Assembly (NCBI RefSeq): GCF_014200395.1
Contig: NZ_JACHBS010000001.1
Coordinates: 372,001-436,000 of the forward strand
Source of the DNA: Microcella frigidaquae
Lineage (GTDB): Bacteria > Actinomycetota > Actinomycetes > Actinomycetales > Microbacteriaceae
Length of the DNA: 64,000 bases
Reading direction: 5' to 3'
Under the pieces are notes generated by a model, which worked only from the letters and a program-made list of their open reading frames with translations, did no database searches and was not told the origin of the DNA. A program made the translations under genes and the position numbers. Positions 48,891 through 61,400 of this stretch are shown here, piece by piece (position 1 is the stretch's first letter; every line of letters starts with the position of its first letter).

Positions 48891-49469
48891 ATGCCCGCGA
48901 CGCCGACCCGCCCGCGCCACGAGCCGCTCGTCGTCGCCTTCGTGCCGGGCGTCACCCCCGGCAAGTGGGAGCGCATCTGGCGCGAACGCCGACCCCCCGG
49001 CCGCCTCGAACTGACCCCCTTGAATCAGGATGCGGCGCTCAAAGCCCTCGCCGACGGCACCGCGCACATGGCGCTCGTGCGCGACACCTCCCCCGACGAC
49101 GACCGGCACGCCATCGAGCTGTACCGCGAAGCGCCCGTCGTCGTGGCGCCGAAAGGCTCGCTGCCCGCGAGCCTCGACAGCCTCACCCGCGCCGACCTGG
49201 CGGGCCTCGACGACCTCGCTCTGCTCGACGTCGACCTGCTCGGCGGCAGCGGGCTCGACGCGATCGAGCTCGTCGCGGCCAACGTCGGCGTCGCCGTCAT
49301 GCCGCAGTCGGTCGCCCGCGCCCACTCGCGCAAGGACGTCGTCGCGCGCCCGCTCACCGATGGGCTCGAGACGCGCGTGTCGCTCGTGTGGCCGATTGTG
49401 GGCGCGCATCCTCTGGTCGATGAGTTCATCGGCATCGTGCGGGGGCGCACGGCGAACAGCTCGCGCTGA
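48891..49469 (+). CDS. Orphan LysR substrate-binding-domain protein (no HTH)
   Basis: A 192-residue protein resembling only the effector domain of LysR regulators: LVVAFVPGVTPGKWERIWRE, HMALVRDTSPDDDRHAIELYREAPVVVAPK, IELVAANVGVAVMPQSVAR, then a SLVWP strand. The DNA-binding helix-turn-helix is absent and cannot lie upstream, because the -10 TAGCCT (48879-48884) overlaps the stop of the preceding gene and the ATG follows 6 nt later. DUF5997 one gene away could supply DNA binding. No ligand is known. Confidence 0.8.
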   Translation: MPATPTRPRHEPLVVAFVPGVTPGKWERIWRERRPPGRLELTPLNQDAALKALADGTAHMALVRDTSPDDDRHAIELYREAPVVVAPKGSLPASLDSLTRADLAGLDDLALLDVDLLGGSGLDAIELVAANVGVAVMPQSVARAHSRKDVVARPLTDGLETRVSLVWPIVGAHPLVDEFIGIVRGRTANSSR

Positions 49470-49557
49470 GAATCGGACGACCTACGGCCGATCGACGATG
49501 CCGACAGGCGTCCCGTCGTCGGTGGAGCCGGTTGCGACGGTGGCGATCCCTCCGTCG

Positions 49558-51444
49558 CTACTGCAGCGAGCGGCCGATGAGGTCGAGCATCAGCCGACCG
49601 TGCCGCTCGATCTGCGCCTCGCCCCACTCGTCGGCGGCGGTCGCGTCGGATGCCATGAGCTGGAACTTCAGGCTCTGATCGCCCGACAGGTACTGCCGGA
49701 TCTTGGCGGTCGGCATGAGGTTGGAGCGTCGAGCGTTCTCGTCACGGCCCATGAGACACAGGTTGCCGAAGCGGTTGACGACGTCGGTAGGCAACGGGTC
49801 GCGGTCGGGCTGCACCGGATAGAAGTGCTCGACCGACTTGCGGTACTGGAACCGGAACTCCGCGGGCTTCACCCCCGCGGGGGCGAGCTCGCCGTCGACG
49901 ACGTACTGCTTCCACAGCAGGTAGTCGAGGTAGGTGAAGAGGAAGTGTTGCACGGCGGTGCCGGTATCGACACCGCTCTCGACCGCGCGGGCGGCGCGTT
50001 GCGCGGCAGCGTCTTCGAGGGTGGCGATCAGCACCTGCGCGTCGATCTCGGTGCTCGCCCGCCACTGCTGCCGCAGCTCGCGCAGGATGACGTGGAGGAA
50101 CTCCTTGTAGGCGCGACGCGAGTCAACCACTTGATACATGGCCTGCAGCATGAGCACGCGCTGGTGCTCGATCGTGTCGCCGAAGGCGGCGACGGGCGAC
50201 ACCTTCTGGGTGCGCCCCTCGCCCACCTTGTGGGCGCGGTGGATGACCCAGTTGGAGTCGTCGTCGGTGCTGTCGCGCACGCTGTCGGTGCGGATCACGT
50301 AGTTGTCGAACAGAAACCGCGTTTCGAGCAGCTCTTCGGCGAACCGCTTCACGGCCTCCGGGCCGCGCCCGTCGAAGACGCGCTCGAACTGCTCGACGAG
50401 GGTCTTGTCGTCGAGCGACACCTCGTCACCATCGGCCTCGCGCGCGCCCGAGACACCCGACACGCTGACGTGCAGCCGTAGTACCTGCAGAAGGAAGTTC
50501 GGGAAGTCGATGATGGCGCCGTAGCGCGGGGTCTCGTCATCGTCGTCGGTCGCACCGGTGCGGGCCACACTCGGCGGGTCCGCAGCGAGAATGGCCAGGA
50601 TCGATCGAGCCTCAGCGGGTTCGCGCGCCGCGTCGAGCGCCTCCCCGAGCTGGGCGAAGCCGGCGGCGGTGCGTCGGTTCCAGGTCTCGCCGAATAGGGC
50701 GGTCCGGGCCGCTTTGGGGGTGAGCGCCTGCACGTGCTTGGTGAGGTCGGAACAGATGTCCCAGAGGGCGGCGAACGTGCGCCGGTCGGTGTCGGTGTCG
50801 AGCCGCTCCATGAGGCGGGCCTTGACGATCTCGTGCTTCTCGAGCTGCTCGCCGCGGCTGTTCATGATCTCGAAGTAGTGGTTCAGATCGGTGCGCGCGG
50901 GCAGCAGGGTGCGCACGAGCTGCACGCGGTCGAGCAGGTGTGCGATGTCGGCGGCCTCGAGCTCGCCGCGGTCCACCAACGCGCCGACGAGGCGGGCAGC
51001 GGCGCGAATTCCGTCGTCGTCGAGGCGCTCGAGCTCGTCGGCATTTCGCGCGCCCGCGATGCGGGCGAGATCGCGGCTCGCGGCGGGGCGGCCTTCGAAC
51101 CCGATGAGTCGCGGGTCGATCGTGGGCAGGTCGACCGCGTCGGCGAAGCGCTGCCGCACGGTGGGGTGCGTGAGCATGATGGTGATCGTCGTGAGCCGCT
51201 GCTGACCGTCGACGATGTCGAGCAGCTCGGTGTGGTCGTCGGGGTCGCGCTCGGTATGCAGCACGAGAGCGCCCACGAAGTACCGGCCGGTCGGGTCTGC
51301 GATTCGCGCATCGCGGATGTCCGACACGAGCGTCTCGATCTCGTCGGCCGTCCAGGCGTAGGCGCGCTGGTAGATCGGCACGCGGTAGCGCGCGGCGGAG
51401 ACCGCGTCACGCACCGACAGGATGGCGGGCACCGTCGTCGTCAT
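49558..51444 (-). CDS. DUF262/DUF1524 (GmrSD-type) protein
   Basis: A 628-residue putative nucleotide-dependent DNase. DUF262 at the N-terminus: VPIYQRAYAW (residues 23-31) and DIVDGQQRLTT (76-86), the DGQQR nucleotide motif. The middle (about 140-450) is helical. The C-terminus keeps the DUF1524 HNH-like core: SVEHFYPV (about 538) and FGNLCLMGRDENARRSNLM (about 560-580), with His and Asn present, though HFYPV replaces the usual HIxP. GmrSD-type enzymes restrict modified phage DNA. Its ATG overlaps the stop of the second DUF262 gene by 4 bp. Confidence 0.85.
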   Translation of the reverse strand: MTTTVPAILSVRDAVSAARYRVPIYQRAYAWTADEIETLVSDIRDARIADPTGRYFVGALVLHTERDPDDHTELLDIVDGQQRLTTITIMLTHPTVRQRFADAVDLPTIDPRLIGFEGRPAASRDLARIAGARNADELERLDDDGIRAAARLVGALVDRGELEAADIAHLLDRVQLVRTLLPARTDLNHYFEIMNSRGEQLEKHEIVKARLMERLDTDTDRRTFAALWDICSDLTKHVQALTPKAARTALFGETWNRRTAAGFAQLGEALDAAREPAEARSILAILAADPPSVARTGATDDDDETPRYGAIIDFPNFLLQVLRLHVSVSGVSGAREADGDEVSLDDKTLVEQFERVFDGRGPEAVKRFAEELLETRFLFDNYVIRTDSVRDSTDDDSNWVIHRAHKVGEGRTQKVSPVAAFGDTIEHQRVLMLQAMYQVVDSRRAYKEFLHVILRELRQQWRASTEIDAQVLIATLEDAAAQRAARAVESGVDTGTAVQHFLFTYLDYLLWKQYVVDGELAPAGVKPAEFRFQYRKSVEHFYPVQPDRDPLPTDVVNRFGNLCLMGRDENARRSNLMPTAKIRQYLSGDQSLKFQLMASDATAADEWGEAQIERHGRLMLDLIGRSLQ

Positions 51445-52886
51445 CGCTGCGCCTCCTCTCGCGCATCCGCGCCGTCGATCGGATCAGCGTCTTCGCGTTC
51501 GCGGGGCGCGGGGATGGCGGGCCAGAACGCGGCGACGATGTCGTCGTAGCCGCCGAAGGCCCGGACGTTCGCGGGCAGCACGGGCTTGGGCACGGCCCGA
51601 CGCACGAGCGCGTGCGGGCGCAGGGTGTCGCGCAGTTCGGCGAACAGGTTGACGTCGCCGCCGTCGCCGACCGCTTGGCCGAGCGCGAAGCGGTTGACCA
51701 TCGACCGACGCACGGCCCAGTGCTGGGCGCGATATGCGAGCACGAGGCGCGCGAAGAGCCGCGCCGCGTCGTCGACGAGGAGGTCGCCGAAGCGGTCGAC
51801 GTAGAGCAGCAGAAGCGCGTCGAACAGCCGCCGCACGAGGGCATAGCGGCGGTCGCGGCGATGCTGCTCGAACCAGCCGATCGGGTGCGGGCGGTCGTGC
51901 AGGTCAGCATCGCCGAGCATGCCGTAGCGGGTGGCGAGCCGGTGGTAGTGGGCGACGAAGGTGAAGAAGGTCTCGCCGTTGATGATCGGCTGCAGGACCT
52001 GGTGCGGGTACGCGACGGGCGCGATCGCGCCGAAGCGCACGAGCGCGGCATTCTCCTGCGTGAAGTCCTCCGTGAAGTTCTTGGCGTAGAGCATCGGGCG
52101 CGCCCAGGCGTAGTGCTCGTTGTCGGGGTCGCCCTGCCGCACGCCCTTGAACTGGTCGACATCACTGACGCGAAAACCGCCCTCGGGCACGGGCCGACCG
52201 CTCGCCCAGCAGCGGATCGGGTGCAGCAGCTCGGCGAACAGAGTGCTGATCTCGGCCGGCTTGATCGACTCCCACAGCGCCACCATCTGCAGGGTGGTCG
52301 CGCGCGGCACCGCGTCCGACTCCATCTCGCGCAGGTGGTACGCCTTCAGCAGGTCGGTCGGGTCGAGCGGCCGCCCGCGCGTGTTCTGCGCGTCGAACAT
52401 CTGGAACGCTTCGTCGATGCGCGGCAGCGAGAGCACCACGACCTCGCAGCCGTCGAACACGAACTGGGCGAACGCCTCGCGCTCGTCGGCAGTCCAGCTG
52501 GCGAGCAGCTCGCGCGCCTGAGCGGCGTTGACGGAGAGCGCCCGCGCCGAGTCACTGAGGCCGAACTGCCCGACGGTGTGGTGGGCGAGCTCGTCGGTGG
52601 CGAGGTGCGACGGGCGGGCATCCTGAAACGCCAGGTCGTCGAGAAGCGCCGCGAGCATGACGAGCGTCACGAAGCGCTGCTGGCCGTCGACGACGTCGAG
52701 GTGGCCGTCGTTCTCGTGCAGGATCACCGTGCCGAGCCGGTACGCGCCGTGCGGCGCGAAGGCGCGCACGTCGTCGATCAGCTGCAGCACGCTGCGCGGC
52801 TGCCAGCGGTAGGGCCGCTGGTAGTCCGGGATGCGCAGCGCCTGCTCGGTGAGCAGGCGGCGAATCGGCCAGAGTTCGACCTTCAT
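51441..52886 (-). CDS. DUF262 protein without DUF1524
   Basis: A 481-residue protein with the GmrS-like N-terminus: LRIPDYQRPYRW (17-28) and HLDVVDGQQRFVTL (62-75). The remainder is helical and ends in an acidic/charged tail (EREDADPIDGADAREEAQR); I see no DUF1524 nuclease motif. It may be the sensing/regulatory partner of the nuclease-bearing DUF262 protein downstream. Its ATG overlaps the nucleotidase stop, and its stop overlaps the next ATG, both by 4 bp. Confidence 0.82.
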   Translation of the reverse strand: MKVELWPIRRLLTEQALRIPDYQRPYRWQPRSVLQLIDDVRAFAPHGAYRLGTVILHENDGHLDVVDGQQRFVTLVMLAALLDDLAFQDARPSHLATDELAHHTVGQFGLSDSARALSVNAAQARELLASWTADEREAFAQFVFDGCEVVVLSLPRIDEAFQMFDAQNTRGRPLDPTDLLKAYHLREMESDAVPRATTLQMVALWESIKPAEISTLFAELLHPIRCWASGRPVPEGGFRVSDVDQFKGVRQGDPDNEHYAWARPMLYAKNFTEDFTQENAALVRFGAIAPVAYPHQVLQPIINGETFFTFVAHYHRLATRYGMLGDADLHDRPHPIGWFEQHRRDRRYALVRRLFDALLLLYVDRFGDLLVDDAARLFARLVLAYRAQHWAVRRSMVNRFALGQAVGDGGDVNLFAELRDTLRPHALVRRAVPKPVLPANVRAFGGYDDIVAAFWPAIPAPREREDADPIDGADAREEAQR

Positions 52887-53380
52887 GCGCTCTCCTTCAG
52901 GTAGGCGACGACCTCAGGCCAGGTCGTGTGGGTTCCGTGCTCGCCGAAGTGGATGACCTCTCCTCCGTGCTCGGGGAACTTGTCGACTCCGTTGTGCTCG
53001 GGGCGATCATCCACCAGGAAGTCGCCGCGGTTCAGGTGCTTGTGGTGCGACAGGATCAGCCGCTTGTACAGCACGGAACCCTTCTCGGCGCCGAAGTGCG
53101 TCTTGATCCACTCGAGCTTGTCGTGCCAGGCCGTCGGGTTCGCCCACGGGGCAGTCGACAGCACGTAGATGTCGAACAGTGGCGCTTGCTCGTGCACGGC
53201 ATCGATCGCGCCGGGCAGCGGATCCATCAGGGCGAAGATGCCCGGAATGTCGTCGCGGTCGGGGTACTGCTCGAGCAGGGCGGGCGACACCCGGTCGATG
53301 CCGCTCGGGAAGTCAACGAGCGTGTTGTCCATGTCGATGTAGAGAATCTTCTTCGCGGCGTTCTCGCTCGAGGTCGACAT
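52883..53380 (-). CDS. 5'-nucleotidase (NT5C/deoxyribonucleotidase, HAD) in DUF262 cassette
   Basis: A 165-residue HAD phosphatase. ILYIDMDNTLVDF has the Asp16 nucleophile and Asp18, VLSTAPW the Ser/Thr of motif II, and LSHHKHLNRGDFLVDDRPEHN the Lys114 and Asp124/Asp125 of motifs III-IV. This matches 5'(3')-deoxyribonucleotidases, which dephosphorylate nucleoside monophosphates, for example dUMP/dTMP. It heads the operon with two DUF262 genes, each joined by a 4-bp stop/start overlap. ATG at 53380 was chosen; the upstream frame has no support. A nucleotide-depleting or signalling role in defence is inferred. Confidence 0.85.
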   Translation of the reverse strand: MSTSSENAAKKILYIDMDNTLVDFPSGIDRVSPALLEQYPDRDDIPGIFALMDPLPGAIDAVHEQAPLFDIYVLSTAPWANPTAWHDKLEWIKTHFGAEKGSVLYKRLILSHHKHLNRGDFLVDDRPEHNGVDKFPEHGGEVIHFGEHGTHTTWPEVVAYLKESA

Positions 53381-53516
53381 CTGCGGCCCTTCCCGGCCCC
53401 TCGCTCTGACGGGCACAGCCTCAGGCTAGGGGCGACCACCGACAAAGGTGAGGCGATGCCACGTCAGGGGGGTGAACCCACTGCCGGTTGGTCTGACCGT
53501 CATCGACGACGTCGCC

Positions 53517-54257: not shown

Positions 54258-55319
54258 CTATTCGGCGAGCGCCGCCGTCAGCGCGTCGACCAGCGCCTCC
54301 GCCTGCTGAGGGCTCAGCGACCCCAGCAGCACCCGCGGCTGCACCTTGTACCTCTCCGCGCGCACACGCTCTGCGTCGATCACACCGGGCACGGTGGCCT
54401 CCACCTCGGCCGTCATCCGCTCGGCAACCTCCGGCGCCATGGCGAAGTCGACGAAACGCAGGTTGAGCCGCAACCCGCGCTGCGCATCCGACTGCAGAGA
54501 GATCGGCCACTTGCGCACGCCGCCGAGCGCCGGCACCTCGATGCTGGCGTTCAATGACGGGGTGGATGCCCGCACCCCGTTCATCCGCCACCCGCGCTGC
54601 AGCAGCCGCTCCCGCAGCGCCCGGTAGGCGGGCAGCCCGTCGGGGTCATGCTGCTCGCCCCACTCGGCGAACGATTCGATCGGCCACCGCTCGCGCGTGA
54701 CCCGGTCACGGCGACCCCGCGCGTCAGCAAGTTCGGAGCCGAACGCGGTCGGGATGAGCACCTCGACACCATCGCGCTGCGCCCGCTGGAACTCCATGAC
54801 GAACACCGCGATCTCGCCGAGCGTGATCGCGTTCAGATACTCGACGATGCGCTTCAGGTCGTCATTGACCTTGTCGACGGCGAGCACCAGACGCATACGC
54901 CCGGCCTCGAGGTTCTCGGCCAGGCGCTCGCGCGTCTCGGCACCCTCCGCGTCGAACGCCGCCAGCGGCGACACCTCCGACTTCGACGCCCGCCGCCAGG
55001 TCGCCTCGAAGGCCTCGACTCCCATCCCCCACAGCCGCGAGGCGTAGTCGAGCACCTGCCCGACGATCTCGCGCCGAATCTGCGGGTTCGTCGTCAGCTT
55101 GCACTCGACGAGCGTCAGCTCGCCCGACTCGTCGAGAATCACGACGTCTGCCGGTCCGACCCCGCTCGAGAACTCGCGGCACGCGACGGCGCGCTCACCC
55201 ACGCCCGGTATCAGAGACGGATGCTCGGCGATCAGCTGCTGCAGCGACGCCTCGTTCTCGTACCCGGTGAGCGACGGCTCGCTCCAGCCTGAGTCGCCGG
55301 AACGGATGAGGATGACCAT
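54258..55319 (-). CDS. Stand-alone PD-(D/E)XK nuclease-like protein
   Basis: A 353-residue protein. The N-terminal nuclease fold is ENEASLQQLIAEHPSLIPG, then GPADVVILDESGE (Asp58) and LTLVECKLTT (Glu72, Lys74), giving D-EXK; QIRREIVGQVLDYASRLWG is the following helix with Gln. The C-terminal half (about 200-353) contains LLQRGWRMNGVRASTPSLNA and a helical tail and is not recognised. It may act on foreign DNA in the island. ATG at 55319; convergent with hepT and not visibly coupled to other genes. Confidence 0.75.
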   Translation of the reverse strand: MVILIRSGDSGWSEPSLTGYENEASLQQLIAEHPSLIPGVGERAVACREFSSGVGPADVVILDESGELTLVECKLTTNPQIRREIVGQVLDYASRLWGMGVEAFEATWRRASKSEVSPLAAFDAEGAETRERLAENLEAGRMRLVLAVDKVNDDLKRIVEYLNAITLGEIAVFVMEFQRAQRDGVEVLIPTAFGSELADARGRRDRVTRERWPIESFAEWGEQHDPDGLPAYRALRERLLQRGWRMNGVRASTPSLNASIEVPALGGVRKWPISLQSDAQRGLRLNLRFVDFAMAPEVAERMTAEVEATVPGVIDAERVRAERYKVQPRVLLGSLSPQQAEALVDALTAALAE

Positions 55320-55354
55320 TCCGTCACCTTACGAGTTCGCGACGACACACTTCG

Positions 55355-56584
55355 TCAGCGGCGCCCTCGCCTCACTCGTCGCGCGTAGGCGTCAAGCGCA
55401 GCGAGCATCTCCGGCTGCGCCCACGTGCGGTTGCGTCGGCGCCCTGACGACTCGACGAGCACCCCTCGCGCCACGAGCGTGTCCAGAGCCCGCTTGACCG
55501 CCACCTCGTTGAGCCCGAGCGTCGACCGCAGGTACGTCGCGTTGACGATCGGCTGGCCGATCAAGACCGGCAGCACCCGGCGCGCAGCGGCGTCACTGCG
55601 CACACCCGCCAGCTTCTCGTACGCTCCCTCCAAAGCGGCCGCAAGGTCGTCGATGAGCGTCATGCCGGTCGCTGCAGCGGCGAGAGCGGCCAGGGCGAAT
55701 CGCCGAGCGATCGGCAGGGCATCCCCCGCCCGAAACGCGGTGAGAGCGTCGAAGTAGCTGTCGATGTCGACGAGCAGGCCCGAGGAGATCGGCACGGTGG
55801 TGCGGGCCACGAGCCCCTTCGCCTTGAGCATGGCTTGAGCCACCGCACGACCGGTGCGCCCGTTGCCGTCAACGAAGGGGTGCAGGGTCTCGAACTGCGC
55901 GTGAGCGACAGCGACGTGAAGCAGCACCGGCAAATCATCGCGCGCGATGAAGCGTTCGAAATCGGCGAGGGCCGCCGACAGGTGCTCGGGGTGCGGCGCG
56001 ACGAACTCTGCCCCGATCGGCCCGGCGTCGCCCGCACCGATCCAGACCAGCTCATCGCGCCACCGCCCGGCGTACTCGGCCATGTCCTCCTGGTGGCTCA
56101 GCAGCGCCTCGTGCATCTGGAGGATGGCTGCCGCGTCGAGGCGATCAGCCAGGGCGAGCGCGGCTTCCATGGCGCGAACATTTCCGACAACGGTGCGACT
56201 GTTGGCACCACTTGCCTCCCCCAGCTCGGCGAGAGCCAGCTGCCGGGCCGAACTCGTCAGCCGCTCGATCTGCGAACTCGACGCGCTCTCGGAGCGCAGG
56301 AGGATCGCCGACATCGGCCCGAGCGTTCCGCTCGCCGCCGAAAGCCGCCGGTCGGCGTAGGAATCGAAGTCGACGAGCGCGGCCGTCGCATCTTCAAGCT
56401 CGGCCACCAGCGCTGCCGGGATGCTCGGTCGCCAGCCTGCGAGCGAGATCGGGATGATCGCCTCATATTCCCCGGACTGGCGCTCGAGTTCGCGGCGCGA
56501 GTAGTACCCCGTCTCACGCGGGCGCCACACTCGGCGCTCGCGCACAGCGACCGGGACCTCGAGGGCGGTGTGATCCGAAAGCAC
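55355..56584 (-). CDS. Fic-family protein with C-terminal winged helix
   Basis: A 409-residue AMPylator-like protein. The Fic core has the full active-site motif HPFVDGNGRTGR (about 237-248) and an N-terminal helix with SSSQIER (102-108). This is close to the inhibitory (S/T)XXXE(G/N) motif, but Arg108 replaces Gly/Asn. The C-terminus (about 335-395: RVLPVLIGQPIVNATYLRST, EVAVKRALDTLVARGVLVE) is a winged helix, so the protein may bind DNA and regulate itself. GTG at 56584 with TATGAT 6 nt upstream. Target unknown. Confidence 0.88.
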   Translation of the reverse strand: MLSDHTALEVPVAVRERRVWRPRETGYYSRRELERQSGEYEAIIPISLAGWRPSIPAALVAELEDATAALVDFDSYADRRLSAASGTLGPMSAILLRSESASSSQIERLTSSARQLALAELGEASGANSRTVVGNVRAMEAALALADRLDAAAILQMHEALLSHQEDMAEYAGRWRDELVWIGAGDAGPIGAEFVAPHPEHLSAALADFERFIARDDLPVLLHVAVAHAQFETLHPFVDGNGRTGRAVAQAMLKAKGLVARTTVPISSGLLVDIDSYFDALTAFRAGDALPIARRFALAALAAAATGMTLIDDLAAALEGAYEKLAGVRSDAAARRVLPVLIGQPIVNATYLRSTLGLNEVAVKRALDTLVARGVLVESSGRRRNRTWAQPEMLAALDAYARRVRRGRR

Positions 56585-56727: not shown

Positions 56728-57576
56728 ATGGCCGACGAGACTCCCATCCTGATCAACGATCTCCTGCACCTCACCGACGACGAACTGAACGGAGACACGT
56801 ACCGCGTCCGCTTGACCTTCAAGTGGGGCAACGATGAGGATTCTGACCCCATCGCTCGATATCGCCGCGACCCGGAAGATGCGCTCGCGCACCTGCTCTA
56901 CTACCGCTCGAAGTCGGCCTTCAAAGTGGGCCAGAGGGTCATTGGGATGACCAAGATCGGCGGCAGCCTCTGGCTCTTGACGCGGATCGTGGAGATCGTC
57001 GGCATCACGGACAACGAAAAAGGCGAGAAGGCCTACCAGAGCCGCGATGTGGCCCAGTACCGCGGCTACTTCGGTCGGGTCATCGTTCGCTACTCAAACC
57101 CCAAGGGCGCGCAAACGGAAGTGCGCAAACCGAGCGCCATCTTCCCGAACATCGAAGTGCACGAGGTTCGGGCGACCGGGTTCGGTGACGAAGGGTTCCC
57201 TGGTTACGCCAACGTCACCATCAGCTGGGCGAAGCTCAAGGAGATCGTCGACCGGCGATACGAAAGTTGGCACACCGCCCTTCGGAACATGAAGGGCATC
57301 TACCTCATCGTCGATACTTCCACCGGCTCCGCCTACGTAGGAAAGGCGGATGGCTCACAGATGATGTGGGCGCGATGGGCCAGCTACGCCAAGTCACGCC
57401 ACGGAGGAAATGTCGAGCTCAAGAAGTTCGAGGCTGCGGACATCGAGAAGCACTTCCAGTGGTCGATCCTCGAGGTCATGGATGAGAAGACCCAAGACGA
57501 CTACGTCAATAAGCGGGAGTCATGGTGGAAGGACGCCTTGAGTACTCGCGGCGCCGGCGGACTCAACCGCAACTGA
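56728..57576 (+). CDS. GIY-YIG nuclease-domain protein
   Basis: A 282-residue protein. The C-terminal GIY-YIG domain (about 188-275): GIYLIVDTSTGSAYVGKADG, then WARWASYAKSRHGGN with the Arg, and Glu in NKRESWWKDAL. The N-terminal 185 residues (VGQRVIGMTKIGGSLWLLTR and a beta-rich middle) are not recognised and may bind modified DNA or other ligands. ATG at 56728 lies 6 nt after TAGCCT (56716-56721). Lower GC than the window suggests acquisition. Followed 25 bp later by a cysteine-rich protein gene. Confidence 0.82.
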   Translation: MADETPILINDLLHLTDDELNGDTYRVRLTFKWGNDEDSDPIARYRRDPEDALAHLLYYRSKSAFKVGQRVIGMTKIGGSLWLLTRIVEIVGITDNEKGEKAYQSRDVAQYRGYFGRVIVRYSNPKGAQTEVRKPSAIFPNIEVHEVRATGFGDEGFPGYANVTISWAKLKEIVDRRYESWHTALRNMKGIYLIVDTSTGSAYVGKADGSQMMWARWASYAKSRHGGNVELKKFEAADIEKHFQWSILEVMDEKTQDDYVNKRESWWKDALSTRGAGGLNRN

Positions 57577-57601: not shown

Positions 57602-58438
57602 GTGTGCAACGGATGGAACCACCCCAAGAACTGCCGATGCGGCTGGGGAGGAGAAGGACACAAGGGTCGAGGCGGCGGAGGCGGCTACGGCTACTCGGGG
57701 TGGTCCGCTGTCGACACTTGGGGTGGAGGATCTTCGCTCGATAGCCCCAACGCCATGTGCCCGAAATGTGAGTCTCCCGTCTACTTCATTCGGCCCCAGA
57801 ACGGTGGGGCCGTGTGGTTCGACGAGCTCGGGAAGCCCTGGCCGAAGCACCCGTGCATGGAGACTCTCCGAGCACGGAATCTCGCACCGACGTACGTGCC
57901 AACATCGCGAGAGGTGCGACCCGCACCTGACGGCTGGACACGTCGCACTGAACCGATGACGATTGCCATGAGCGAGAGCTTCGCCGTCTGGGCCGGAACT
58001 ATCGGCCGAAGCCACTACTACTTCCTCGAGAAACCTTTGGAGCCCCTTAGCCCGGCCTTTATCGGTTGGGACAAGTCAGATCGGCGCAAAGGAACAATCG
58101 AGTTCCTCGTGGCCAGCAGTACGGGTATGCGGGAGCAGAGTTACACGATCTTCCGCCCCAGCAACCGATACCTGAATCAGCAGGTCGAAATCCCGACGAG
58201 GAAGCTCTGGATTCCGCTTGTCACTTTCGTGGAGGCGTACGGGAACAAGACCCCGCGCGCGGCACGGGAACTCGTCGCGAGGGTCCGCGAACGCACCGAA
58301 TGGCTCATCGAACCCGGCTGGTATCACTCGGAGGCGAGTCGACATCTCGTTCTCGGTGCGCTGAAGAAGCTGCTCGTGCGCCACCGCCCCCTGCACCCCG
58401 AGCAGATGCTCCGCTGGATGAGGCTTCTGACGAACTAG
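57602..58438 (+). CDS. Cys/Gly-rich protein of unknown function beside the GIY-YIG gene
   Basis: A 278-residue protein. The N-terminus MCNGWNHPKNCRCGWGGEGH is a compact Cys/His motif, followed by a Gly/Tyr-rich stretch and MCPKCESPVYFIRPQNGG...HPC, a likely zinc finger (about 50-80). The middle and C-terminus (FVEAYGNKTPRAARELVARVRERTEW, HPEQMLRWMRLLTN) are helical. GTG start at 57602. Close spacing to the GIY-YIG gene suggests cotranscription and joint function; nucleic-acid binding is plausible. Confidence 0.7.
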   Translation: MCNGWNHPKNCRCGWGGEGHKGRGGGGGYGYSGWSAVDTWGGGSSLDSPNAMCPKCESPVYFIRPQNGGAVWFDELGKPWPKHPCMETLRARNLAPTYVPTSREVRPAPDGWTRRTEPMTIAMSESFAVWAGTIGRSHYYFLEKPLEPLSPAFIGWDKSDRRKGTIEFLVASSTGMREQSYTIFRPSNRYLNQQVEIPTRKLWIPLVTFVEAYGNKTPRAARELVARVRERTEWLIEPGWYHSEASRHLVLGALKKLLVRHRPLHPEQMLRWMRLLTN

Positions 58439-58455
58439 GAGAGCTCAAGACTGGA

Positions 58456-61400
58456 CTAACCCAACCCGAAGTACCGCTCGAAGAACTCGCCGAGCCGGTC
58501 GAGCACGCGCTGCTTCTTGGCCGCGTGCGCGCCGTCCGGCGCGAAGCGCGAGGCGGGCGGCAGCACGCGGGCGATCGCCACACCGGAGGTCTGCAGCGCG
58601 CCATCGCGGAAGGCGCGGTCGATGAACTCGCGGGTGGCGTCGGGGTGCAGAGACTCGTCGGCGATGAGTTGCGTGAGCTCCGCATCCCGGCGGGCGACGA
58701 CGTAGGCGGTCCACTCTTCGTCGACGGCGCCGGTGGCCGAGACGCGGTCGACGAAAGCCTCGATGAGCTCTTTCTTGTTGCGCAGGCTGGGCGACGCGTC
58801 GATCGCGCGGCTGATCTGTGCACGCACCTCGGTGTCGTCGCCGTCTCCGCGCTCGTCGCGGTACTTCTGCACCAGCAGCAGGATGTAGTCGACGGTGATC
58901 TCGACCTGCTTGATCAACTCGATCTCGAAGGTGAGGTCGTCGTTGATGACCTCCTTCTCGTCGGTCGGGCGCCGGATCGAGGCGTAGATGTCGAGGTAGA
59001 TCGAGCGGTAGTCCTGCTTCTGCCGCGCGGTCAGCAGCTCATCGGACTCGAAGTCGTCGAACGAGGTCAAGATGTTCTCGAGTCGCAGGATCGAGCCGAG
59101 CAGCGCGACGAACTCGCGCTGCGCCTCCTCCCCCACGATCGGCACCTCGACCGGAAACCGCTCGAGCAGATCGATGACCAGCGCCGAGTATTCGGCGTAG
59201 TACTCGCCGTACGGCTTCAGCAGCACGACGCCGCGCGCGTTCTTGTTGCCGAACAGGGCGATCGCGTCATTGGTCTGCTTCTCGAGGTCGCGGAAGCTGA
59301 CGATGTTGCCGTACGTCTTCACCGAATTCAGGATGCGGTTGGTGCGCGAGTAGGCCTGAATCAGCCCGTGCGACCGCAGGTTCTTGTCGACCCACAACGT
59401 GTTGAGGGTCGTCGCGTCGAACCCGGTGAGGAACATGTTGACGACGATGACGAGGTCGATCTCGCGGTTCTTCAGCCGCTTCGACAGGTCGGTGTAGTAG
59501 CCGGCGAAGCCGTTCGACGAGGTGTCCCACTGGGTGCCGAACAGGCGGTTGTAGTCGGCGATCGCGGCATCGAGAAACTCCCGCGAGGGCAGATCGAGGC
59601 CGGATGGATCGAATCCCTCTTCGTCGAGAAACCCCGCGCCATCGAGAGAGTCAGCCTCGGCCTCGTTGGCGGCGAACGAGTAGATGATGCCGACCTTCAG
59701 GCGCTGAGCATCCGGAATGGTCGCCTGCATCGTCTGGAACGCGGCGTAGTAGCGCTTCGCCGCCTCGATCGACGCCGTCGCGAACAGGGCGTTGAAGCCG
59801 CGCACACGGCGCTCCCCCAGCGCGTAGTTCTCGCTGCGCCGGGTCTTCTGGTCGAAGTGCTCGAGGATGTACTCGACGATGTTGCCGATGCGCGTCGGGT
59901 CGAGCAGCGCCTTCTCGGTGTCGATCGCCGCGACCTGTTTGTCGGTCAGCCCCTCGGGCATTGTGATGGTGTTGACGTAGTCGATGCGGAACGGCAGCAC
60001 GTTCTTGTCGGTGATCGCATTGACGATCGTGTACGTGTGCAGCTTCTCGCCGAACGCCTGCTCGGTGGTCTTCAGCAGAGGCTTACCGCCCGAGCCGGCG
60101 TTCTCGGCGAAGATCGGCGTGCCGGTGAAGCCGAACAGGTTGTAGCGCTTGAACGCCTTCGTGATCGACGTGTGCATGTCGCCAAACTGCGAACGGTGGC
60201 ACTCGTCGAAGATCAGCACGACGTGCCCGTCGTAGATACTGTGGCCCTTCTGCGACTGCACCAGGCGCGCCAGCTTCTGAATGGTCGTGATGACGATGCG
60301 GCGCTCGGGGTCGGCCAGGTTCTTCGACAGCTCGGCCGTCGACGTCGACGCGTTCGCCGCGCCCTTCTCGAACCGGTCGTACTCGCGCTGGGTCTGCCAG
60401 TCGAGATCTTTCCGGTCGACGACGAACAGCACCTTGTCTACGCTCGGCAGCCGGGACGCCAACTGCGCCGCCTTGAATGACGTCAACGTCTTGCCCGACC
60501 CGGTCGTGTGCCACACGTAGCCGCCGGCCGCCGTCGTGCCGAGCTGCTTGTAGTTTGTGGCGATCTCGATGCGCTGCAGAATGCGCTCCGTCGCCACGAT
60601 CTGGTACGGCCGCATCACCAGCAGCTGCCGGTCGGCGGTCAGCACGCAGTAGCGGGTCAGAATCGCGAGCAGCGCGTGCTTGGCGAAGAACGTCTTCGTG
60701 AAGCCCACCAGGTCGCGAATCGGCGTGTTCGACGCGTCAGCCCACCACGACGTGAACTCGAACGAGTTGCTCGACTTCTTCACCCGCTGCTGACCGCGGG
60801 CATCCTCGACGTGCTGGCGCCGCGCGGTGTTCGAGTAGTACTTCGTGAGGGTGCCGTTGCTGATCACGAACAGCTGCACGTAGTCGAACAGACCCGAACC
60901 GGCCCAGAAACTGTGCCGCTGATACCGGTCGATCTGGTTGAACGCCTCACGGATGTCGATGCCGCGCCGCTTCAGCTCGACGTGCACGAGCGGCAGTCCG
61001 TTCACCAGAATCGTCACGTCGTAGCGGTTCGCGTATGCCCCGCCAGCGTCTCCACCCTGTTCGACCTCGTACTGGTTGATCACCTGCAGGCGGTTGTTGT
61101 GGATGCTCTTCTTGTCGATCAGCGCGATGTTCTTCGTGCTGCCGTCGTCACGCCGAAACGCGTACACGTGGTCTTCTTGAATGCGCACCGTCTTGTTCAC
61201 GGTGCCATCGTTCGCGCCCGCGATGTACTCGCTCAGCAGCCGCTGCCACTCGTCGTCAGAGAACTCCACCTGATTCAGCGCCTGCAGCTGCACCCGCAGA
61301 TTCGCCAGCAGCGCGGCCTCGGTGCGCAGAGACACATACTCGTAGGCCTGCCCCTGCAGCAGACGGATGAACTCCGCCTCCAGCGCCGCCTCCGACTGGT

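Follow-up and report, generated by a model that had tools for sequence, protein, structure and literature searches.

A probable TgvAB-type restriction pair and its apparently independent deoxyribonucleotidase neighbor in a variable island of Microcella frigidaquae

We analyzed a three-gene block in a 64,000-nucleotide stretch of the Microcella frigidaquae genome (assembly GCF_014200395.1, contig NZ_JACHBS010000001.1, positions 372,001 to 436,000). This whole stretch is called the window, and positions without a locus name are window positions. The block contains a gene for a 5'(3')-deoxyribonucleotidase (NT5C) followed by genes for two DUF262 proteins (DUF262a and DUF262b). The two DUF262 genes most probably (about 85%) encode a two-protein, type IV (modification-dependent) restriction system of the TgvAB type, which lies in a variable island, behind an NT5C that is independent of it. 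The type of the pair is already known, and the block is probably not a new three-part defense system. With this pair, the two-protein GmrSD-like (TgvAB-type) systems gain an actinobacterial example. The block contains the following features.

52883-53380, minus strand: NT5C-type 5'(3')-deoxyribonucleotidase of the HAD superfamily, 165 amino acids (aa); the open reading frame (ORF) also opens at GTG 53416
51441-52886, minus strand: DUF262a, TgvA-like, 481 aa, with GmrSD_N (DUF262) and DUF7834 over the Pfam cut-offs
49558-51444, minus strand: DUF262b, TgvB-like, 628 aa, with GmrSD_N and a GmrSD_C (DUF1524, HNH/His-Me) nuclease over the Pfam cut-offs
52883-52886, minus strand: ATGA overlap of 4 bases between NT5C and DUF262a, with a Shine-Dalgarno-like AAGGAG just 5' of it, within the coding end of NT5C
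51441-51444, minus strand: ATGA overlap of 4 bases between DUF262a and DUF262b
53381-53468, minus strand: NT5C leader, alignable with the sister species G202 (80% DNA identity across 52879-53468)

Judged by homology, all three are real genes. The Pfam match of NT5C has an E value of 9.9e-13 (48.8 bits against a cut-off of 24.8), and the solved structures related to it are cytosolic and mitochondrial deoxyribonucleotidases. Its residues D16, D18, T76, K114, D124, and D125, which we take to be the HAD catalytic residues, show no variation across 30 aligned sequences. DUF262a contains the DGQQR motif at D67 G68 Q69 Q70 R71 (invariant in 31 sequences), and no nuclease domain was found in it with Pfam. 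DUF262b contains the same motif at D79 G80 Q81 Q82 R83 (invariant in 34 sequences). Among its His-Me residues, H540 (HFYP) is conserved in at least 90% of the 34 sequences, and E539, N561, and N570 are invariant. The GmrSD motifs of a published account (PMC4619093) are present. DUF262b encodes YQR, DGQQR, F191xxxN195, E539-H540, N561, and N570, and DUF262a, which lacks DUF1524, encodes YQR, DGQQR, and F164xxxN168. A first-pass annotation had read the block as three same-strand genes with 4-bp ATGA overlaps: a HAD nucleotidase with all catalytic residues, a DUF262 gene (DGQQR) without a nuclease, and a DUF262 gene with a DUF1524-like HNH. The ORFs and overlaps were located where it had placed them, and the Pfam domains and conserved residues agree with its gene calls.

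DUF262a and DUF262b are a nearly constant unit across the best 80 loci, which come from many bacterial phyla (6 are actinobacterial) and include 1 from Methanobrevibacter. A scan of genome contigs with the DUF262a alignment gave at least 552 confirmed stretches. The loci counts use the best 80 of 552, and near relatives may be missing from them. When the single DUF262a protein was the query, no confirmed locus was retrieved; the alignment did yield loci. The pair and NT5C were scored in the loci with profiles built in this analysis. DUF262b was found directly downstream of DUF262a on the same strand in 77 of the 80, and the other three (L040, L053, and L057) stop at contig edges. In 24 of the 77 relatives, DUF262a ends in a stop that shares 4 or 1 bases with an in-frame start. 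An in-frame ATG, GTG, or TTG was present within 30 bp of that stop in 75/77, a loose test that is often passed by chance. As an indirect sign of a common source, we compared the largest source contig size across the homologue lists, using the best 120 of 3313, 2069, and 5904 matches (119, 120, and 119 with a size). The DUF262a and DUF262b lists share 39 such coincidences. DUF262a-like stretches were also retrieved from 894 plasmid records; none covers 80% of the query, and they are in no count given here.

The nucleotidase occurs mostly apart from this unit. It had been proposed as an obligate partner, and a search for co-occurrence of the three genes had been set beforehand as the test. As far as the samples go, NT5C and the pair occur apart, the outcome named beforehand as refuting the proposal, with one probable close strain excepted. 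NT5C as an obligate third component of the pair is not supported. No NT5C profile match was retrieved from any of the best 80 DUF262a loci, of which 73 extend 0.6 kb or more upstream of DUF262a and 7 extend less. A direct NT5C search in the 19 DUF7834 genomes of the order matched the window genome (G000) and none of the other 18. In the family sample (199 genomes), 9 genomes contain NT5C and 3 contain DUF7834; G000 alone contains both. The order samples (396 genomes) gave 17 DUF7834 matches and 9 NT5C matches, and again G000 is the sole genome on both lists. Of the 26 genomes in the genus sample, two (G000 and G202) contain NT5C and one (G000) contains DUF262b.

The same separation appears from the side of NT5C. 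Its relatives were retrieved from 105 confirmed viral contigs, of which the best 80 were kept, and from 72 of 50,697 phage records. Neither DUF262a nor DUF262b was found near viral NT5C in these 80 loci, with flanks of up to 6 kb on each side. Twelve cellular NT5C loci scored well (the window, L177, L178, L183 to L188, and L226 to L228, with G064 giving two). The weak loci L181 and L182 and the weak order matches of G528, G266, G308, and G349 were left out. All 11 of the other well-scoring loci lack DUF262a and DUF262b within the 12 to 19 kb examined. A single case of equal largest contig sizes (best 120 each) pairs NT5C with DUF262b, and none pairs NT5C with DUF262a. Some GmrSD_N gene is present in 10 of the 17 genomes with an NT5C match, on the same contig as NT5C in G000 and G589 alone, and this count is uninformative.

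The same site in G202 contains a different partner. The relative of the window NT5C there is 77% identical. A blastn comparison of the window with G202 gave three matches in the same order, at 48912-49470, at 52879-53468 (NT5C and its leader), and at 58455-58930 (hsdR). The G202 gene that is coupled to NT5C by ATGA encodes a 194-aa HD_4-like hydrolase (20.0 bits against a Pfam cut-off of 27.2). The final 43 bases through ATGA, including AAGGAG, are identical at 39 of 43 positions, and the alignment stops just beyond them. Since this junction sequence is common to G202, where another gene is downstream, the signals for coupling are part of NT5C and act for whichever gene follows it. The overlap signal is within the 3' end of NT5C and therefore says little about joint function. 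By themselves, the ATGA overlaps are weak evidence for joint function. Such an overlap can mislead, with its signal in the upstream gene and the same signal kept before a different downstream partner. With two genomes compared, either partner of NT5C may have come first. The best reading of NT5C is a separate enzyme of nucleotide metabolism, a predicted deoxynucleoside monophosphate (dNMP) phosphatase. It is probably co-translated with the pair and is probably no needed part of it.

Among the 12 well-scoring cellular loci, which include the window, 4 have HD_4 either fused to NT5C or coupled with it.

L177 9507-10633 (G202): NT5C coupled to an HD_4-like protein
L178 9209-10144 (G006): NT5C-HD_4 fusion, over the Pfam cut-off
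L184 8346-9356 (G064): NT5C-HD_4 fusion, 25.1 bits, below the cut-off
L227 8118-10315 (G584): NT5C coupled to an FGase-HD protein

The second NT5C copy of G064 has a weak HD match more than 2 kb away. The NT5C-HD gene of G006 has as neighbors an ADP-ribosylglycohydrolase, NrtR, ARPP-1, and TY-Chap2, a metabolic or repair-like setting. The loci of G202, G006, G064, and G584 represent a candidate module for processing nucleotides or ADP-ribose.

The first-pass annotation had also called the block an undescribed defense system of GmrSD type. The defense role is supported by the protein family. The novelty is not, as this is a described type of system, represented by TgvAB (PMC11411939) and GrwAB (PMC12137116). 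The TgvAB paper and a review (PMC12409362) describe TgvA with an N-terminal DUF262 and TgvB with DUF262 and DUF1524, both of which are needed. A further trait of the type is restriction of phages whose hydroxymethylcytosine is sugar-modified. PMC11411939 places the pair between hsdM-hsdS and hsdR and reports a survey with 1,341 pairs against 79 five-gene operons. The window pair has the same order, a DUF262-only gene and then a DUF262 plus DUF1524 gene, adjacent and on one strand. Both of its proteins contain DGQQR, and the second contains the His-Me motif with its catalytic His and its metal-binding Asn. Ten of the 80 best relatives of the pair have hsd-like genes on both sides, and an hsd-like gene is present within the available stretch in 18/80. 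The full order hsdM-hsdS-pair-hsdR was recognized in two loci only, L051 and L075; in the other hsd-flanked loci the call rests on one upstream gene. The queries for this test were the three hsd proteins of the window, each searched singly, and HsdS is hard to find in this way. Unlike published TgvAB, which takes its name from its embedding in a type I restriction-modification operon, the window pair is outside the hsd operon. The hsdR gene ends at 58456, about 5.1 kb past the NT5C start, and six genes on both strands separate NT5C from it. The window pair also differs in being preceded by NT5C and in being actinobacterial.

Other known systems fit less well. GrwAB, another GmrSD-like type IV system encoded by two genes, resembles the window pair in having DUF262 in both proteins. 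Its nuclease is GrwA, and the partner GrwB comes from the second gene; in PMC12137116, GrwB and TgvA are described as unlike outside DUF262. The GrwAB type was rejected for the window, where the second gene encodes the nuclease and DUF7834 is found in the partner. The single-chain proteins GmrSD, BrxU, SspE, and DndI share the DUF262 and C-terminal nuclease architecture of DUF262b, but each is one protein without a DUF262-DUF7834 partner. The PADLOC labels HEC-06, Orf5, and SspE were also rejected, as their best stretches are limited to parts of the profiles, chiefly at the start of DUF262. NT5C resembles the cytosolic 5'(3')-deoxyribonucleotidase in sequence and in its conserved active-site residues and differs from it in genomic setting. 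Among open-licence PMC papers, none was found that contains both of the words DUF262 and nucleotidase, and no wider absence is claimed.

The nearest solved structures are DndI, SspE, and BrxU for DUF262b and SspE and DndI for DUF262a. By sequence, DUF262b matched the DndI chain among solved structures (2.3e-8) and DUF262a matched SspE (3.6e-5). AlphaFold2 models of the two proteins had pLDDT values of 82.4 and 81.5. With Foldseek, the DUF262b model matched DndI (2.2e-8), SspE (8.2e-6), and BrxU (3.3e-3). The DUF262a model matched SspE (2.8e-8) and DndI (3.3e-6), and BrxU only at 0.04.

Both DUF262 domains (ParB/Srx-fold, DGQQR) would bind and hydrolyze nucleoside triphosphate (NTP). A complex of DUF262a and DUF262b may sense modified phage DNA, its presumed target, which the His-Me (DUF1524) domain of DUF262b may then cut. 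The pair occupies the place that the HD-like hydrolase has in G202. It probably uses the ATGA and the Shine-Dalgarno sequence that lie within the 3' end of NT5C, and it is probably co-transcribed with that gene.

Several points weigh against a TgvAB-type pair behind an independent NT5C. The nearest relatives P0001 (NT5C, 92%) and P0241 (DUF262b, 98%) share a largest-contig size of 19322, and the arrangement is therefore probably present in at least one other close strain. In G589 (L228 8161-15668), the distance from NT5C to a GmrSD_N gene of a different type is about 5 kb, and that gene is beside a C5 DNA methylase. The HD_4 matches of G202 and G064 are below the Pfam cut-off. Completeness of the G202 genome is only 81%, and hsdR there is cut off by the contig end. 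The likeness to TgvAB is one of layout, domains, and motifs, with hsd-flanked relatives as a proxy for a direct comparison with the TgvA and TgvB sequences. The Foldseek TM-scores are low (about 0.2 to 0.37) and do not confirm the overall domain arrangement. The G+C content is 63.5% in NT5C, 70.3 and 68.5% in the pair, and 71 to 73% in the flank, and it does not mark the pair as a newcomer; NT5C, not the pair, is the one that stands apart from the flank.

NT5C itself may, with or without the HD protein, be a small, independent defense or nucleotide-depletion cassette, with the DUF262 pair as a second and independent one behind it. The two genus genomes with NT5C both have it inside the variable island, its G+C content is below that of the flank, and the C5 methylase and GmrSD_N gene of G589 are close to NT5C. 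We nevertheless find this doubtful. Relatives of NT5C are common in viral contigs and phages, the NT5C-HD gene of G006 has a metabolic or repair-like setting, and PADLOC gave no match for the window NT5C or for the G202 HD protein. The shared contig size, with the ATGA coupling in the window genome and the complete set of NT5C active-site residues, would suit a lineage-specific three-part variant. In such a variant the nucleotidase would be a working subunit or regulator, for example one that removes modified dNMPs or tunes the NTP pool sensed by DUF262. This is very unlikely given the best pair loci and DUF7834 genomes without NT5C and coupling signals that serve an HD-like gene in G202. It is a long shot that the nucleotidase was recruited in this lineage to remove dNMP precursors of modified bases, or to shift the pool sensed by DUF262, while the pair cuts modified DNA from the same operon. 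If the nucleotidase were a working partner, nucleotide metabolism would be joined to modification-dependent restriction. We give almost no credence to a neighborhood without working restriction, in which the pair is inactive or an unrelated DUF262 couple. The ORFs are intact, the motifs are conserved, and the pairing in relatives is strong, all of which argue against this reading, as far as sequence can tell.

The block is at one end of a variable island. The region from about 49.5 to about 74.8 kb (from 49470, continuing in L189) contains much defense cargo. The neighbors of the block in the window are an MNT/HEPN pair, a PDC-S11-like gene, Fic, a UzuA-like gene, one gene without a family match, and a type I restriction-modification system; the toxin-antitoxin pair and type I system named in the first-pass annotation are thus both present. 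The sister genome G212 has genes in common with both flanks: on the left the S51-peptidase and LysR-like genes, in exchanged order, and on the right those from 74865 onward in window coordinates. Its cargo between the flanks differs and includes an ATPase that partially matches many of the ATPase models in PADLOC.

Other genes of the island are as follows.

54258-56584, minus strand: PDC-S11-like protein, in which a weak NucS-like stretch scores below the Pfam cut-off, and a Fic protein of SoFic-like kind
56728-57576: protein that PADLOC labels as UzuA (Uzume)-like
57602-58438: 278-aa protein beside the UzuA-like gene, with no Pfam, PADLOC, or NCBIfam match at E 0.001
L189 67-1370 and 1849-5574, further inside the island: IS3-like transposase genes (rve, HTH_Tnp_1) and a 1241-aa KAP-family P-loop NTPase
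L189 5638-6261 and 10849-11474 (69638-70261 and 74849-75474 in window coordinates): two direct copies of the last part of an ECF sigma factor gene, each of about 626 bases, 94% identical and 5.2 kb apart

The repeat may be an insertion or duplication scar at the island edge.

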